A DNA stretch of 45,093 nucleotides from Clostridia bacterium (GTDB taxonomy: Bacteria; Bacillota; Clostridia; Oscillospirales; CAG-272). Where the stretch lies: contig JAFQUJ010000016.1 in NCBI GenBank assembly GCA_017408585.1, positions 1 through 45,093 of the forward strand, given 5' to 3'. A model generated the notes under the pieces. It was not told the origin of the DNA and searched no databases. It saw nothing but the letters and a program-made list of their open reading frames with translations. The translations under genes were made by a program, and so were the position numbers. Shown piece after piece: positions 20,436-37,608 of this stretch (its first letter is position 1; each line of letters starts with the position of its first letter).

Positions 20436-21146
20436 TTAGTTTTCGCTATAAATTACGGTAAGGTCGGGGTGTAGCTGAAGAATAGAGGCAGGAACCTCAG
20501 GGGTGATTGGACCAAAGAATGCCCTTTCGATAATATCCCTTTTACCCTTACCATTTGCAATTAGCAAAACCTTCTTTGCTGACATAATGCCACCCATACC
20601 CATAGTAATTGCTGTTTTAGGAACATCGTCACGAGTTGCAAAGAAGCGTGAATTTGCTTCAATTGTAGAGTCATCGAGGGTCACCTTATGGGTTGCCTTT
20701 TCAAAATAGGTATCAGGCTCGTTAAAGCCGATATGTCCATCGTAGCCAATTCCCAAGAGCTGAAGGTCAATTCCGCCAAGGCTCGCTATCAATTCATCAT
20801 AAGCTCTGCACTCTGCATCTATGTCGCTAGCACAGCCATTAGGAACATAAGTATTGCTTATATCAATGTTTATATGCTTGAATAGATTGTTATTCATAAA
20901 ATAACGATAGCTTTGATCGTGATCGCCATCAAGTCCTACATACTCGTCAAGATTGATAGACTTAACATTTGAAAAATCAACCTCTGACGCCTTGTTTTTT
21001 TCGATTATTTTTGCATACGCTCCAAGAGGTGATGAGCCTGTTGCCAAGCCGAGAACGCAATTTGGCTTGATGGCAACCTGACCGCAAATGATGGCAGAGG
21101 CGCGAGTGCTAAGCTCCTCATATGTGTTAACTCTGATAAAATTCAT
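20436..21146 (-). CDS. nagB: Glucosamine-6-phosphate deaminase/isomerase
   Basis: 236 residues, the usual Firmicutes size. Converts glucosamine-6-phosphate to fructose-6-phosphate plus ammonia, and is reversible. Motifs: LGLATGSSPLGAY (phosphate loop), SINLDEYVGL (catalytic Asp), LLGIGYDGHIGFNEP (His/Glu active-site pair) and SRFF. It is the last gene of the HTH-GlmM operon (24 bp downstream of the acetyltransferase). There is no NagA or GlmS in the window, so it could serve either hexosamine breakdown or, run backwards, glucosamine-phosphate supply. Confidence 0.95.
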   Translation of the reverse strand: MNFIRVNTYEELSTRASAIICGQVAIKPNCVLGLATGSSPLGAYAKIIEKNKASEVDFSNVKSINLDEYVGLDGDHDQSYRYFMNNNLFKHINIDISNTYVPNGCASDIDAECRAYDELIASLGGIDLQLLGIGYDGHIGFNEPDTYFEKATHKVTLDDSTIEANSRFFATRDDVPKTAITMGMGGIMSAKKVLLIANGKGKRDIIERAFFGPITPEVPASILQLHPDLTVIYSEN

Positions 21147-21170: not shown

Positions 21171-21833
21171 TTATACTCTTTTTACTATTACCTTGGTGGA
21201 CTTTACAATACAGTCACATGGATAAACACCACGCAAAGCAGTCAAGGGATAGACAGATGTATTTTTTCCTATTATAGTGCCCGGATTTATAACAGCACCA
21301 CAGCCTACATCTACGCCATCTGCAAGAATACCACCAATTTTGCGCAAGCCTGTTTCGTAATCGACATCACCATGTATAACTACCGGCTTTCCGTCAGCTT
21401 TAAGGTTTGAGCATATTGTTCCTGCACCTGTATGAGCCTTGTTACCTAATATAGAGTCCCCTATATAATTATAATGCGGTATTTGCACTCTGTCAAGTAA
21501 AATACAATTTTTTAATTCTGAAGAATTGCCAATTACACAGTCTTCTCCGGTTATAACACCACCTCTTATGAACGCTCCCGGGCGCACCTCAGAGCCTGAG
21601 CCTATAATGGTTGGTCCTTCTATTGTAGCAGTGGGATATATTTTAACATTTTCGCCTACAAGCACATTTTCGGCTATAAGAGTATATCCGGTCATGCCAC
21701 TTTTAATAAGGTCAAGTATATAGTCCTTTATCTTAGGAAGCATTTGCCAAGGATATTCACACAAGTCAAAAAGTGGTACGAGGTGCTCCGGCACTATGGA
21801 ATATAAATCCTTTGTCCTAACAAGCTTATTCAA
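21171..21833 (-). CDS. GlmU C-domain-like left-handed beta-helix acetyltransferase
   Basis: 220 residues from TTG 21833, which has GGGAGGA 7 nt upstream; ATG at 21851 is an alternative but overlaps that SD. Repeated hexapeptides (VLVGENVKIYPTATIEGPTIIG..., GVITGEDCVIGN..., GAVINPGTIIGKNTSVYP) form a left-handed beta-helix. PHYNYIGDSILGNKAHTGAGTICSN matches the GlmU acetyltransferase block around its catalytic His and acetyl-CoA site. The uridylyltransferase half of GlmU is absent. Expected reaction: glucosamine-1-phosphate plus acetyl-CoA to N-acetylglucosamine-1-phosphate. It overlaps the end of HTH-GlmM by 8 nt, so the two are translationally coupled. Confidence 0.8.
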   Translation of the reverse strand: MNKLVRTKDLYSIVPEHLVPLFDLCEYPWQMLPKIKDYILDLIKSGMTGYTLIAENVLVGENVKIYPTATIEGPTIIGSGSEVRPGAFIRGGVITGEDCVIGNSSELKNCILLDRVQIPHYNYIGDSILGNKAHTGAGTICSNLKADGKPVVIHGDVDYETGLRKIGGILADGVDVGCGAVINPGTIIGKNTSVYPLTALRGVYPCDCIVKSTKVIVKRV

Positions 21834-23445
21834 CGCAGTGTCCTCCCTCATTGATAACTTTTATTATCCTTTCGGTATATTCAACACATTTTTCGTAGGC
21901 TTCTGCCTCAACCATAACTCGTATAACAGGCTCTGTTCCACTTTGGCGAATAAGGACTCTGCCTTTTTTGTTTATGAGCCTTTCGATATTTTCAACCTCT
22001 CTTTTTACATTTTCGTCCTCGATAACGGCAGATTTATCCCTTACATGTACGCTTTTAAGATACTGGGGATAAAGCTCTATGGGCTCTGCAAGCTTTGAAA
22101 GAGTCGCCTTTGAGTCGCACATTTCCTCTACTACCATAATAGCAGTCAATATTCCATCGCCTGTTGTAGCGTATTTTTTCATAATAATATGTCCTGACTG
22201 CTCGCCACCGATTGCGTAATCGTTATTTTGCATACATTCATACACAAAGCGATCACCCACAGTAGTTTGAACGCATTTAATGCCTATCTTATCCATGCTT
22301 GCAATAAAGCCACTATTTGACATAACAGTCATGACAACCGTGTTGTCATTTAGCATTCCCTTTGCCTTTAATCGCTTGCCGAGAATGTAGATTATAGCAT
22401 CTCCATCAACTAAATTTCCATTTTCGTCAACTGCAAGGCATCTATCGGCATCGCCATCAAAGGCAAAGCCTACATCAAGGTGCTTTTCCTTAACTAATCT
22501 TTGAAGATTTTCAATGTGTGTTGATCCACACCCCTCATTGATGTTAAGTCCGTTAGGCTCGTTTCCAATAACATATGTTTGTGCACCAAGAGCGCTAAAT
22601 ACTGCGTTTGCTATATACCACGAGGCTCCGTTTGCACAGTCAAGTCCTATCTTTAATTTTTTGTAGGAATTTGACGCAATCGAAATTAAATAACCAATAT
22701 AACGATTTCTGCCCGCTGAATAATCGTGAATACAGCCTATGCTTGCCTTTTGCGCTAATGGAAGGTCATCACCTATCACTCCGAGTGTAGCAAGGTCTCC
22801 ATCAAGGTATGCTTCAATTAGCGCGGTGGTTTCATCATCAAGCTTTTCTCCGTGTGAGTTTATAACCTTGATACCATTATCAAAATAGGGGTTATGAGAG
22901 GCGGTTACCATGATACCACAATCAAATTCGTCTATACGCGTTACATAAGAAACGCTTGGTGTAGTTGTTACATGAAGCATATAAGCATCTGCTCCCGATG
23001 CGGTTATTCCTGCGACTATGGAATATTCAAGCATATAGCTTGAGCGACGAGTATCCTTTCCTATTACAATGCGAGGGCGATATCCGGGCTTTGTACAGCC
23101 GGACAGCTTTGATGAAAAGTACCAGCCAAGAAACCTTCCTACCTTGTATGCCTGCATAGAGGTAAGGCTTGCGTTTGCCTCGCCACGAAATCCGTCTGTA
23201 CCAAAATACTTGTTTCTTTTTGGCTTAGTCGATATGCTTGATATGTCTATTTTGTCATACAGAAGCTCATCTGTCGAAACGCCAAAAATCTGTGCGAGCT
23301 TGAGCACCTTGTCTATTTGTGGAAGCGCCTGCCCGATTTCCCATTTAGATACAGACTGTCTTGAAACTCCAAGCGCCTCAGCGAGATGCTCTTGAGAGAT
23401 ATCCTTAGATATTCTAAGTCGCATAATTTTTTCACCAATTTTCAT
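21826..23445 (-). CDS. glmM: XRE helix-turn-helix fused to phosphoglucosamine mutase (HTH-GlmM)
   Basis: 539 residues; normal GlmM is ~445. Residues 1-66 are a complete XRE-type helix-turn-helix (ISQEHLAEALGVSRQSVSKW, then LPQIDKVLKLAQIFGVSTDELL). After a ~12-residue linker, GlmM begins at KYFGTDGFRG. It carries the phosphoserine loop VTASHNP (S183), the metal loop FDGDADR (330-335), the sugar loop GGEQSGH and phosphate-binding RQSGTEP. All key residues are present, so it should interconvert glucosamine-6- and -1-phosphate. There is no ATG or Shine-Dalgarno sequence between the domains, so the mutase is made only as the fusion. It leads the operon with the acetyltransferase and nagB. GCAAC-N5-GTTGC palindromes upstream are its likely operators. 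Confidence 0.92.
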   Translation of the reverse strand: MKIGEKIMRLRISKDISQEHLAEALGVSRQSVSKWEIGQALPQIDKVLKLAQIFGVSTDELLYDKIDISSISTKPKRNKYFGTDGFRGEANASLTSMQAYKVGRFLGWYFSSKLSGCTKPGYRPRIVIGKDTRRSSYMLEYSIVAGITASGADAYMLHVTTTPSVSYVTRIDEFDCGIMVTASHNPYFDNGIKVINSHGEKLDDETTALIEAYLDGDLATLGVIGDDLPLAQKASIGCIHDYSAGRNRYIGYLISIASNSYKKLKIGLDCANGASWYIANAVFSALGAQTYVIGNEPNGLNINEGCGSTHIENLQRLVKEKHLDVGFAFDGDADRCLAVDENGNLVDGDAIIYILGKRLKAKGMLNDNTVVMTVMSNSGFIASMDKIGIKCVQTTVGDRFVYECMQNNDYAIGGEQSGHIIMKKYATTGDGILTAIMVVEEMCDSKATLSKLAEPIELYPQYLKSVHVRDKSAVIEDENVKREVENIERLINKKGRVLIRQSGTEPVIRVMVEAEAYEKCVEYTERIIKVINEGGHCVE

Positions 23446-23516
23446 ATTAAATCTCCTTAAATCATTATTTCGATATAAGATATCGCCACACAGGGTGGGC
23501 TTTTTCTAATATACAT

Positions 23517-23545
23517 ATTGTAACAAACACAAGCTTCTTTTGCAA
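23517..23545 (-). promoter_or_regulatory. Promoter of the HTH-GlmM operon
   Basis: Minus strand: -35 TTGCAA (23545-23540), 17-nt spacer, -10 TACAAT (23522-23517). The -35 box is part of the leftmost, degenerate palindrome, so a protein bound there would exclude RNA polymerase. Confidence 0.75.
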
Positions 23546-23555
23546 CCAACTTTGC
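23542..23555. promoter_or_regulatory. Operator candidate O1 (degenerate GCAAC-N4-TTTGC) over the -35 box
   Basis: GCAACCAACTTTGC, an imperfect copy of the two perfect palindromes to its right, overlapping the -35 box of the HTH-GlmM promoter. Confidence 0.5.
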
Positions 23556-23568
23556 ATTGAAATTTTTG

Positions 23569-23583
23569 GCAACTAAGGGTTGC
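23569..23583. promoter_or_regulatory. Operator candidate O2, GCAAC-N5-GTTGC
   Basis: GCAACTAAGGGTTGC. Read on the minus strand with flanks it is TTAGCAACC-N4-GTTGCC, the same as O3. Its centre is ~27 bp from O1. Confidence 0.6.
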
Positions 23584-23650
23584 TAAAGGGATAATTTTCG
23601 AATAAATAACCAAAATTCAACTTAAAATGCAATAAATCCTCCTTTTGTTA

Positions 23651-23665
23651 GCAACCGTTGGTTGC
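23651..23665. promoter_or_regulatory. Operator candidate O3, GCAAC-N5-GTTGC
   Basis: GCAACCGTTGGTTGC with flanks TTA...CTTT, in opposite orientation to O2, centres 82 bp apart. It lies outside both mapped transcripts, so it acts as DNA rather than as an RNA hairpin. Bases 23666-23791 hold no gene, only a GCGC-rich patch near 23684-23710. Confidence 0.6.
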
Positions 23666-23791
23666 CTTTCTTTATCGTCTGCTCGCGCACAATAGCGCAA
23701 GCCAAGCGCTCCTACACCACCTATTAAATGCTCAAGATTCGATATGGTGACTTACCGAAAAGAAAATCCACCCTAAAATAAAAAATATCTA

Positions 23792-34980: not shown

Positions 34981-37608
34981 ATGAAAGAGCTTGCGAAAAC
35001 ATATTCGCCCTCAGAATTCGAGGAAAGAATTTACAAGAATTGGTGCGATAGGGGCTATTTTACGCCACAAATCGACCATTCAAAGCCACATTATTCTATT
35101 GTTATTCCACCGCCAAACATTACAGGTCAGCTCCATATGGGTCACGCCCTTGACAACACTCTTCAGGATATTCTTATCCGTTACAAGAGAATGAATGGCT
35201 ACTGCACCCTTTGGCTTCCCGGCACTGACCATGCGTCTATTGCAACCGAGGCAAAGATTGTCGAGGCTATGCGAGGCGAGGGCGTTACAAAGGAAGATAT
35301 TGGTCGTGATGGCTTCCTTACTCGCGCTTGGGCTTGGAAGGAGCAATATGGTGGAAGAATTATCTCTCAGCTTAAAAAGCTAGGCTCGTCCTGTGACTGG
35401 TCAAGGGAGCGTTTTACCATGGACGAGGGCTGTTCTCAGGCTGTAAAGGAGGTATTTGTTCGCCTTTACAACAAGGGACTTATATATCGTGGTGAAAGAA
35501 TTATAAACTGGTGTCCACATTGTCTTACATCAATCTCCGATGCCGAGGTTGAGTACGAGGAGCAGGCAGGTCATTTTTGGCATATCAAGTATCCCTTCAC
35601 TGATGGTAGTGGTTATCTTGAATTTGCGACAACCCGTCCTGAAACCATGCTGGGTGATACTGCGGTTGCGGTAAATCCTAAGGACGAAAGATACAAGGAT
35701 TTAATTGGAAAGACTCTTCTTATTCCACTTGTAAATCGTGAAATTCCTGTTATTGCCGACGAATATGTTGAGATGGATTTTGGAACAGGTGTTGTTAAGA
35801 TTACGCCTGCGCATGACCCTAACGACTTTGAGGTTGGAAAAAGACACAATCTTCCTATTATCAATGTAATGACCGCTGATGCGAAAATCACAGACGATTA
35901 TCCAGCTTATGCCGGTATGGATCGCTTTGAGGCAAGGCGCGCTATTGTTGCTGATCTTGAAAAGCTCGGCTACCTTATTCGAGTAGAGGATTATGCGCAC
36001 AATGTTGGTACTTGCTATCGTTGTGGCACGACCGTTGAGCCTAGAGTTTCGCTTCAATGGTTTGTTAAGATGGAACCTTTGGCTAAGCCTGCAATTGAGG
36101 CTGTTCGCTCGGGTGAGATTAAGTTCGTTCCTGAGCGCTTTGAAAAGAACTATTTCCACTGGATGGAAAACATTCGTGACTGGTGTATTTCTCGTCAGCT
36201 TTGGTGGGGACACAGAATTCCTGCGTTCTACTGTGACGATTGTGGAGAGATTGTTGTAACTAAGGACACAGAGGCTACTTGTCCTAAATGTGGCAAGGCT
36301 ATGCGTCAAGATCCCGACACGCTTGACACTTGGTTCTCTAGTGCGCTTTGGCCCTTCTCTACTCTCGGTTGGCCAAATGAAACTGAGGATCTAAAGTATT
36401 TCTATCCTACAAATACTCTTGTAACAGGCTATGATATTATCACCTTCTGGGTATCAAGAATGATATTCTCAGGTCTTGAATACATGGGTGAAAAGCCATT
36501 TGACACAGTTTTAATTCACGGTCTTGTTCGTGATGCACTTGGAAGAAAGATGTCAAAATCGCTTGGAAACGGAATTGACCCTCTTCTAATTATTGAAAAA
36601 TATGGTGCTGATGCACTTCGCTTTGCACTTGCAACAGGCAACTCCCCCGGAAACGATATGCGCTTCTCCGACGAGAAGATTGAGAGTGCGCGTAACTTTG
36701 TAAACAAGCTTTGGAATGCATCGCGCTTTGTTATGATGAATGTTGATATCGACAAGGTAGAGCTTCCATCCTCTGACAAGCTTGGTCTTGCTGACAAGTG
36801 GATTTTGAGTCGCCTCAATGCGCTTATCAAGAATGTTCGTACACAGCTTGACGCATTTGAGCTTGGAATTGCGCTTGACGAGCTTTACAAGTTCGTTTGG
36901 GATGTATTTTGTAGCTGGTATATTGAGCTTTCGAAGCCTGCATTCATGGCTAAGGGCACAGAGCAAAACAAGGTTTCTCAAAATGTTATTATCTATGTGC
37001 TTGAAAGCATCTTGAAGCTCCTACACCCATTTATTCCTTTCATTACAGAGGAAATTTATGGATCTCTTCCTCACTTTGAGGACTGCGAGAGCATTATGAT
37101 TTCAACATATCCTAGCGCAAGCGACGAGTTTGATTTTGAGGACGAGTGCGAGAAGATGGAAAAAATCATCGCTGTAATTGACGCTATTCGTGCAAGGCGT
37201 AGTGAAATGAATGTTCCACCATCAAGAAAGGCAAAGGTATTTATTGCTACCTCTTATAAGAGCGCATTTACGCCTGACACATACGATTTCTTCAAGGCGC
37301 TTGCTTCTGCCTCCGAGGTTGAGGTTCTTGACGAATATGATGGCGAAAATTCAGTTCAAATTATCACTCACGCAGGCACAGTTTACATTCCTATGGCTGA
37401 TATGGTTGATACGGAAAAGGAGCTTGCAAGGCTTAATGGTGAGCTTATTAAGGTTCAAGCGGAGATTGATCGTCTTGTAACTAAGCTTTCAAATCCGGAG
37501 TTTGTAAACAAAGCGCCTGAAAGAGTTGTTAATATGGAAAGAGAAAAGCTTGCTAAGTACGAGAGCACAAAGCAAGGAATTCTCGACGCTATTGCATCAC
37601 TTAAATAA
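34981..37608 (+). CDS. valS: Valyl-tRNA synthetase
   Basis: 875 residues, full-length class I synthetase that charges tRNA-Val. HMGH (52-55, in [16 protein letters not shown]) and KMSKS (523-527) form the ATP site. [17 protein letters not shown] and [17 protein letters not shown] are the editing domain. [20 protein letters not shown] and two CxxC pairs (CDDC, CPKC) suggest zinc knuckles. The C-terminal ~65 residues are the coiled coil ([20 protein letters not shown]). AAGGAG precedes the ATG. Regulated by the T-box 300 nt upstream. Monocistronic, with a hairpin after the stop. Confidence 0.98.

Follow-up and report, generated by a model that had tools for sequence, protein, structure and literature searches.

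A gene in the window analysed here (45,093 nucleotides of a single contig) encodes an XRE-type DNA-binding domain and a phosphoglucosamine mutase (GlmM) in one polypeptide of 539 residues (21826..23445, on the reverse strand, as are all features given below except a T-box leader). Our reading, to which we assign a probability of roughly 0.7, is that this fusion protein is a working mutase that also regulates its own operon by binding to its own promoter. Comparison with related genes shows the domain structure, the retained catalytic loops, a candidate operator upstream of the gene itself, and the lack or degradation of this operator in four relatives in which the helix-turn-helix (HTH) is lost or ruined. 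An enzyme in a group of gut bacteria thus probably switches its own gene cluster.

The open reading frame starts with ATG, is preceded by an AAGGAG Shine-Dalgarno sequence (23453..23458), and was recognized as a fusion from Pfam and NCBIfam matches and from 49 distinct homologous fusions. The XRE/HTH_3 domain occupies residues 1-64 (23254..23445) and matches the Pfam HTH_3 model at residues 7-61 (8e-16, 58.2 bits versus a gathering score of 23), with a recognition-helix region that reads VSRQSVSKWE. It is followed by a variable linker (residues 65-77, 23215..23253) and a complete GlmM (residues 78-532, 21850..23214). All four PGM_PMM domains (I-IV) were found by Pfam between residues 79 and 528, and the NCBIfam glmM model TIGR01455 matched residues 81-532 over model positions 1-441 of 442 with 502 bits, above the cut-off of 447.55. 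A complete HTH_3 and an over-cut-off TIGR01455 match within one ORF bear out the original prediction that an XRE domain is joined in frame to a full GlmM. The catalytic loops, all of which had been reported as kept, are each present (SHNP at residue 183, DGDADR at 330, GGEQSGH at 413 and RQSGTEP at 500), and the mutase has no separate start, as had also been claimed, because residues 56-96 include no in-frame ATG, GTG or TTG codon.

An AlphaFold model based on a 46-row alignment (mean pLDDT 87.1, pTM 0.78) predicts a five-helix HTH (helices at residues 3-13, 18-25, 29-36, 44-54 and 58-62), a poorly ordered linker (pLDDT below 50 at residues 70-75) and a GlmM fold. The HTH had been placed at residues 1-66; the domain itself stands, but its boundaries are mended to about residues 3-62, with the linker at residues 65-77. 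As determined by fold matching, the closest solved structures are the GlmMs of B. subtilis, B. anthracis and S. aureus, and the GlmM part of the fusion is 47% identical to B. subtilis GlmM (7ojr).

The arrangement might have been an artefact of assembly or of start-codon choice, and the assembly of the window genome is incomplete. Full-span fusions were found in 62 genomes from 13 numbered families of one class. In a second set, which partly overlaps the first (three proteins are identical), fusions accounted for 24 of the 80 Clostridia loci kept from 568 relatives, with one more (L055) cut at a contig edge. The proteins range down to 52% identity. An assembly artefact was rejected because of this recurrence, and an artefact of either kind is now extremely improbable. 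The family search (E ≤ 1e-30, match from query residue 1 or 2) gave full-span fusions in 28 of 196 genomes, plus an incomplete match in G162, which covers residues 1-325 and lies at the end of a contig; the order search (E ≤ 1e-170) gave 28 of 295 genomes, 20 of them new, and the class search (E ≤ 1e-195) gave 15 of 391, 14 of them new. The figure of 62 genomes is a lower bound, since the strict E-value limits in the order and the class would miss more divergent fusions. The stated source of the 24 loci was ruminant cecum, colon or rectum for 14 and rumen for 1, while 9 were without a gut site.

The 52 fusion loci gave 49 distinct proteins after three identical ones were dropped, the edge-cut L055 being outside the count. 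All 52 loci have the same joint, and in each a start codon aligns with residue 1 of the window protein (ATG, except for GTG in L051). Mean pairwise identity among the fusions is 61% in the HTH, 70% in the GlmM part and 14% in the linker, and an alignment of 46 fusions shows no variation at residues R11, E19, W35, E36 and D59. When L055 is counted as a fusion, a single change of state accounts for the fusions in a tree built from 101 GlmM domains. The identity that persists outside the order (70-75%) and the mixture of fused and unfused GlmM within genera such as g23 and g28 suggest horizontal spread of the fusion. The birth of the fusion from an adjacent XRE gene was considered and rejected: no split ancestor was found at 57 standalone glmM loci with up to 6 kb of flank (less at contig or locus ends), and only one of these (L112) has a similar XRE gene nearby, 1.8 kb upstream.

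As judged from its motifs, the fusion is best read as a catalytically competent GlmM. The serine, magnesium, sugar and phosphate loops of TIGR01455 type are kept with minor variants in the 49 fusions. Without exception, the serine loop reads SHNP or SHNA, and the metal and phosphate loops fit DGD[ACT]DR and RxSGTE, respectively. In 37 of the 41 carriers checked, the fusion is the sole GlmM above the cut-off (26 of 29 genomes in the first set and 11 of 12 further genomes have exactly one such GlmM). No second over-cut-off GlmM was found in the window genome, in an assembly that is 69% complete. Of the other four carriers, G037 and G140 combine the fusion with another over-cut-off GlmM that stands alone, G162 is partial, and G378 is described below. 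The fusion loci of G037 and G140 (L016 and L019) have neither an acetyltransferase nor nagB downstream, and the sugar loop of their fusions reads GGESSGH. This is one departure among their loops, and the two were not called dead enzymes, since no position that is invariant in the other 47 fusions is altered in both. Partial GlmM-like matches below the cut-off (204 and 298 bits) were also observed beside the main GlmM in G677:C57 and G745:C237, and these are possibly second copies or fragments. A 97% complete genome from the genus of the window genome (G027) showed no over-cut-off GlmM and no full GlmS.

The fusion gene is the first in its operon and is followed by genes for a GlmU-like acetyltransferase without the uridylyltransferase half (21171..21833) and for glucosamine-6-phosphate deaminase, nagB (20436..21146; TIGR00502, 278 bits, above cut-off), both assignments also resting on synteny. 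Residues 33-203 of the acetyltransferase align to positions 216-390 of the TIGR03992 profile, under the cut-off of that model, and its TTG start at 21833 overlaps the stop of the fusion gene. A GlmU-like acetyltransferase that lacks the uridylyltransferase half comes next, overlapping or nearly so, in 40 of the 52 fusion loci; nagB was found downstream in 17 of the 52, many flanks ending too early to tell. The gene cluster is independent of the fusion, since the unfused relatives L108 and L111-L113 share the glmM-acetyltransferase-nagB order. The gene immediately after the fusion is a full glmS in G184, G040, G141, G098 and G060. A search that was positive in all 14 control genomes gave no full-length over-cut-off GlmS for 16 of the 29 fusion genomes, and 9 of those 16 are at least 90% complete. 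Given that nagB is in the operon, salvage or a NagB running in reverse may supply the GlcN-6-P in these genomes. The possibility that a glmS ribozyme or some other leader precedes the fusion was also considered and dropped, because the sole Rfam match in the whole window at gathering scores is a T-box leader (RF00230, 34458-34664, forward strand, 138.5 bits) before an ORF at 34981 that was identified as valS, for valyl-tRNA synthetase, by reading of its sequence.

A conserved candidate operator before the fusion genes is newly described here. It is a palindrome, GCAACYNNNRGTTGC, with the inner bases GCAAC-N5-GTTGC, and in the window it is represented by O1 (GCAACCCTTAGTTGC, 23569..23583). The 300 nt upstream of 49 fusions and of 57 standalone glmM genes were searched for it. 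O1 with a spacer of 5 was perfect, including the outer Y/R bases, in 35 of the 49 fusions and in none of the 57 standalone genes, some of which may be operon-internal and transcribed from promoters outside the searched 300 nt. When only the ten inner bases were considered and one mismatch was tolerated, the counts became 44 of 49 versus 0 of 57. Allowing spacers of 4-6 gave 36 of 49 versus 0 of 57 for perfect sites and 44 of 49 versus 1 of 57 for sites with at most one mismatch, compared to 0.1% and 0.9%, respectively, in base shuffles of the fusion upstreams. The palindrome lies 90-160 nt before the start in 39 of the 49 fusions, and the window carries an extra perfect copy farther upstream (GCAACCAACGGTTGC, 23651..23665). 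The region 23530-23670, which had been guessed as the binding target, does contain the candidate operators.

A second candidate operator, O2 (TCAATGCAAAGTTGG, 23546..23560), is a weaker copy of O1 that lies downstream of it at a distance of 23 bp and abuts the -35 box of a putative promoter, TTGCAA-N17-TACAAT, with a TG before the -10 box (23517..23545). In 38 upstreams anchored on O1, the conserved columns beyond the anchor were the outer Y/R bases, an A-tract, a GTTGSTTG block and the extended -10; O2 is conserved among the columns outside the anchor, and the flanks are low in information. O2-type sites (TCAAN6GTTGS with at most two mismatches) occur 22-24 bp from O1 in 36 of 57 rows, or 36 of 55 distinct HTH-intact genes, versus a mean of 0.4 and a maximum of 3 in shuffled sequences. 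The -10 box lies 60-62 bp from O1 in 35 of 55 rows and is extended by TG in 31 of 55, and a -35 box within two mismatches of the consensus is present in 38 of 55.

If the fusion protein binds to these sites, then repression is the most likely sign of control, because O2 abuts the -35 box of what appears to be a fairly strong promoter with a good -10. The same protein could instead activate its own gene, with a dimer at O2 touching sigma, and this carries appreciable but clearly lesser weight. XRE domains include cI-type activators, and the lambda PRM operators lie at about -66 and -42, while O1 and O2 are centred near -65 and -43 of the inferred start, with the regular spacing of O1, O2 and the -10 just given. 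The spacing of O1 and O2 resembles that at lambda PRM and would allow activation; with a -10 that is strong and often extended and a -35 near the consensus, however, activation should not be needed. Repression is therefore preferred in what follows.

The loss of the HTH was compared with the loss of the operator. Three close relatives (L174, L175 and L176; 65-74% identity) are without the HTH, and their short start resembles its first codons, so that the domain was apparently lost by in-frame deletion. Two of them are without the operator, and L176 keeps a relic with one mismatch. All three nest inside the fusion clade (SH-aLRT 96 for the enclosing fork, with inner forks mostly weaker), and the fewest changes in the HTH tree, five, fit one gain and four losses. 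A start that separates the two domains in close homologues had been named beforehand as a sign of assembly error. These three relatives have that form, but because of their position among intact fusions they are read as secondary deletions and not as a sign of assembly error. In L057 the HTH remains, but the changes Q18R, S28P and R29V, at positions that are each invariant in the other 48 fusions, ruin the recognition helix, and there is no operator.

A perfect operator was found in 46 of 60 HTH-intact rows (45 of 59 distinct genes, L170 and L179 being one gene) compared to 0 of 4 in which the HTH is lost or ruined (Fisher p = 0.005, with relatedness ignored). A tree-aware independent-pairs test was not significant because it had too few supported pairs (2 on supported branches, 5 in total), and in four genes (L026, L032, L047 and L058) the operator is absent although the HTH is intact. 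A further relative, L177, was left out of the HTH/operator tree because its first motif is changed. In all, the prediction that the protein binds DNA and controls its own promoter is strongly supported by the comparison, since a candidate self-operator is conserved in the fusions but absent or decayed in relatives that have lost the HTH. SQE and VSRQ are residues that contact DNA in XRE domains, and they are kept in 46-49 of the 49 fusions. This conservation and the presence of a matching operator make it very improbable that the HTH has given up DNA binding and is kept as a stabiliser or as a module for protein contacts, a role that could be argued from the degenerate HTH retained in L057 and from the action of GlmM through protein contacts with CdaA (as described in the part of PMC8573169 consulted).

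Occurrences of the palindrome elsewhere were counted in 18 fusion genomes. There are 1-13 copies per genome, versus 0-5 for a reversed control, and a perfect copy lies at the fusion in 17 of the 18, the exception being G171, in which the fusion has only a one-mismatch site. Single extra palindromes mean little, because the reversed control equals or exceeds the number of forward hits in 7 of the 18 genomes. Fifteen extra sites, picked for outer Y/R fit, were inspected, and the genes were judged by reading of the ORF beginnings: 5 lie at other XRE genes, 7 within called ORFs and 3 in intergenic regions elsewhere. No recurring amino-sugar gene was recognized at these 15 sites, and a wide regulon was rejected on the strength of these placements and of the control counts. 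Perfect palindromes that may be due to chance were also seen between dnaN-like and recF-like genes (L145, 2989; G000:C19:17388) and before a 6-phosphofructokinase-like gene (L148, 2967; G140:C7:64666), all gene names being assigned by reading.

Of the 5 sites at XRE genes, G171 has two, and G082, G126 and G169 have one apiece, at genes that are orthologous within a single genus. These sites bear on whether the operator might belong to a different XRE regulator whose recognition helix is the same, in which case the HTH of the fusion would be passive or only compete. In L151, L154, L155, L158 and L159 the palindrome lies at the start or upstream of such regulator genes, the recognition helix of which is near-identical to that of the fusion. 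This supports the match of helix and operator, but it also allows cross-binding, and, VSRQSVSKWE being a common XRE helix, the site could be open to paralogous XRE proteins. The imperfect site of the G171 fusion would also fit another regulator. In G133, G157 and G038, however, the palindrome at the fusion is the sole perfect copy in the genome; the four relatives with a lost or ruined HTH keep at most a relic of the operator, and the HTH is far better conserved than the linker. Control by another regulator is therefore considered unlikely.

On the preferred reading of an autoregulating mutase, we infer actual DNA binding and mutase activity, together with the geometry of the dimer on DNA, the sign of control and gating by a ligand. 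A GlmM dimer, paired through domain 1, would carry two XRE heads, and these would bind GCAACYNNNRGTTGC at O1 and also the weaker O2, two helical turns away and against the -35 box. Binding would set the transcription of glmM, the GlmU-like acetyltransferase gene and nagB. Occupancy by GlcN-6-P or GlcN-1-P, or the phosphoserine state, would then loosen DNA binding when flux demands more enzyme. According to the part of PMC8573169 consulted, GlmM dimerises through domain 1 and its domain 4 is mobile. Two heads on one palindrome are reasonable if the dimer pairs through the domain to which the head is attached, and the mobility of domain 4 suggests gating by substrate or phosphoserine. The dependence of DNA binding on substrate state, as originally predicted, is plausible. 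It is a tentative further step, given slightly less than an even chance, to regard the fusion as a one-protein flux sensor in which the sole GlmM of the cell reads the substrate load through its active site or phosphoserine and sets the transcription of the operon.

One fusion outside the set of 49 may have gone beyond this state. L177 (G378:C7:14000-18500) has an intact HTH and scores 381 bits, under the GlmM cut-off; its motifs read FGAHGFRA, ASQSS, EQSGS and QESPAYP, with DGDADR retained. A palindrome lies 175 nt upstream, with perfect inner bases and with outer bases that deviate from the usual Y/R. No other over-cut-off GlmM was found in this genome (G378, 85% complete). We read L177 as a fusion in which catalysis is decaying or gone, and it looks like a natural transition from enzyme to regulator. 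Taken jointly with the flux-sensor reading, and with the same reserve, the clade may form a series from the standalone enzyme through the active fusion with a self-operator and the fusion beside a second GlmM (G037 and G140) to the decayed, HTH-intact regulator (G378), with several reversions by deletion of the HTH. The apparently separate losses make the idea of a path from enzyme to regulator testable.

GlmM makes the precursor of every wall polymer derived from UDP-GlcNAc, and model Firmicutes steer the pathway at GlmS, by a ribozyme, and by GlmR/YvcK and c-di-AMP contacts. A mutase that binds its own operator, if true, would provide a separate solution one step after GlmS. The fusion shares with autoregulated XRE/Cro-cI repressors the HTH_3 domain and palindromic candidate operators at its own promoter, in a tandem two turns apart; it differs from them in that the partner is a whole housekeeping enzyme and not a dimerisation, peptide-binding or cleavage domain. 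BirA, NadR, PutA and RbkR are bifunctional enzyme-regulators, or trigger enzymes, which likewise have catalysis and a DNA-binding domain in one polypeptide and regulate their own pathway, but they are other enzymes with partly other HTH types, and we know of none with a phosphohexomutase fold. The GlmMs of B. subtilis and S. aureus (7ojr and 6gyz) are the same enzyme, with 44-48% identity in fold matches and a domain-1 dimer, but they are without a DNA-binding domain, and the matches span only the GlmM part of the fusion. They moonlight as inhibitors of the c-di-AMP cyclase CdaA/DacA, as described in the parts of PMC8573169 and PMC6368335 consulted.

Enzyme-regulator fusions are thus already known as a kind. 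A GlmM or phosphomannomutase fused to an HTH was not found in the titles and abstract beginnings of the open-licence literature, where one candidate report (PMC12419801) appeared, from the part available, to be unrelated. The closest known system is BzdR, in which, according to the part of PMC3602430 consulted, an XRE domain is joined to a shikimate-kinase fold that has lost kinase activity, senses benzoyl-CoA and controls a catabolic operon, and for which an active chimera, Q1, was built as the supposed ancestor. Both proteins consist of an N-terminal XRE domain, a linker and the fold of a metabolic enzyme. The C-terminal part of the fusion, however, is identified by Pfam as PGM_PMM I-IV and not as shikimate kinase, its catalytic loops are kept, and in most carriers it is the only over-cut-off GlmM. 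If true, the fusion would be a natural and still catalytic intermediate of the path from enzyme to regulator that was argued from the synthetic chimera, and L177 resembles a natural step on the way to the state of BzdR. The fusion family would then be a natural counterpart of BzdR on a different and essential enzyme, with L177 as a possible end-state and with apparent reversions.
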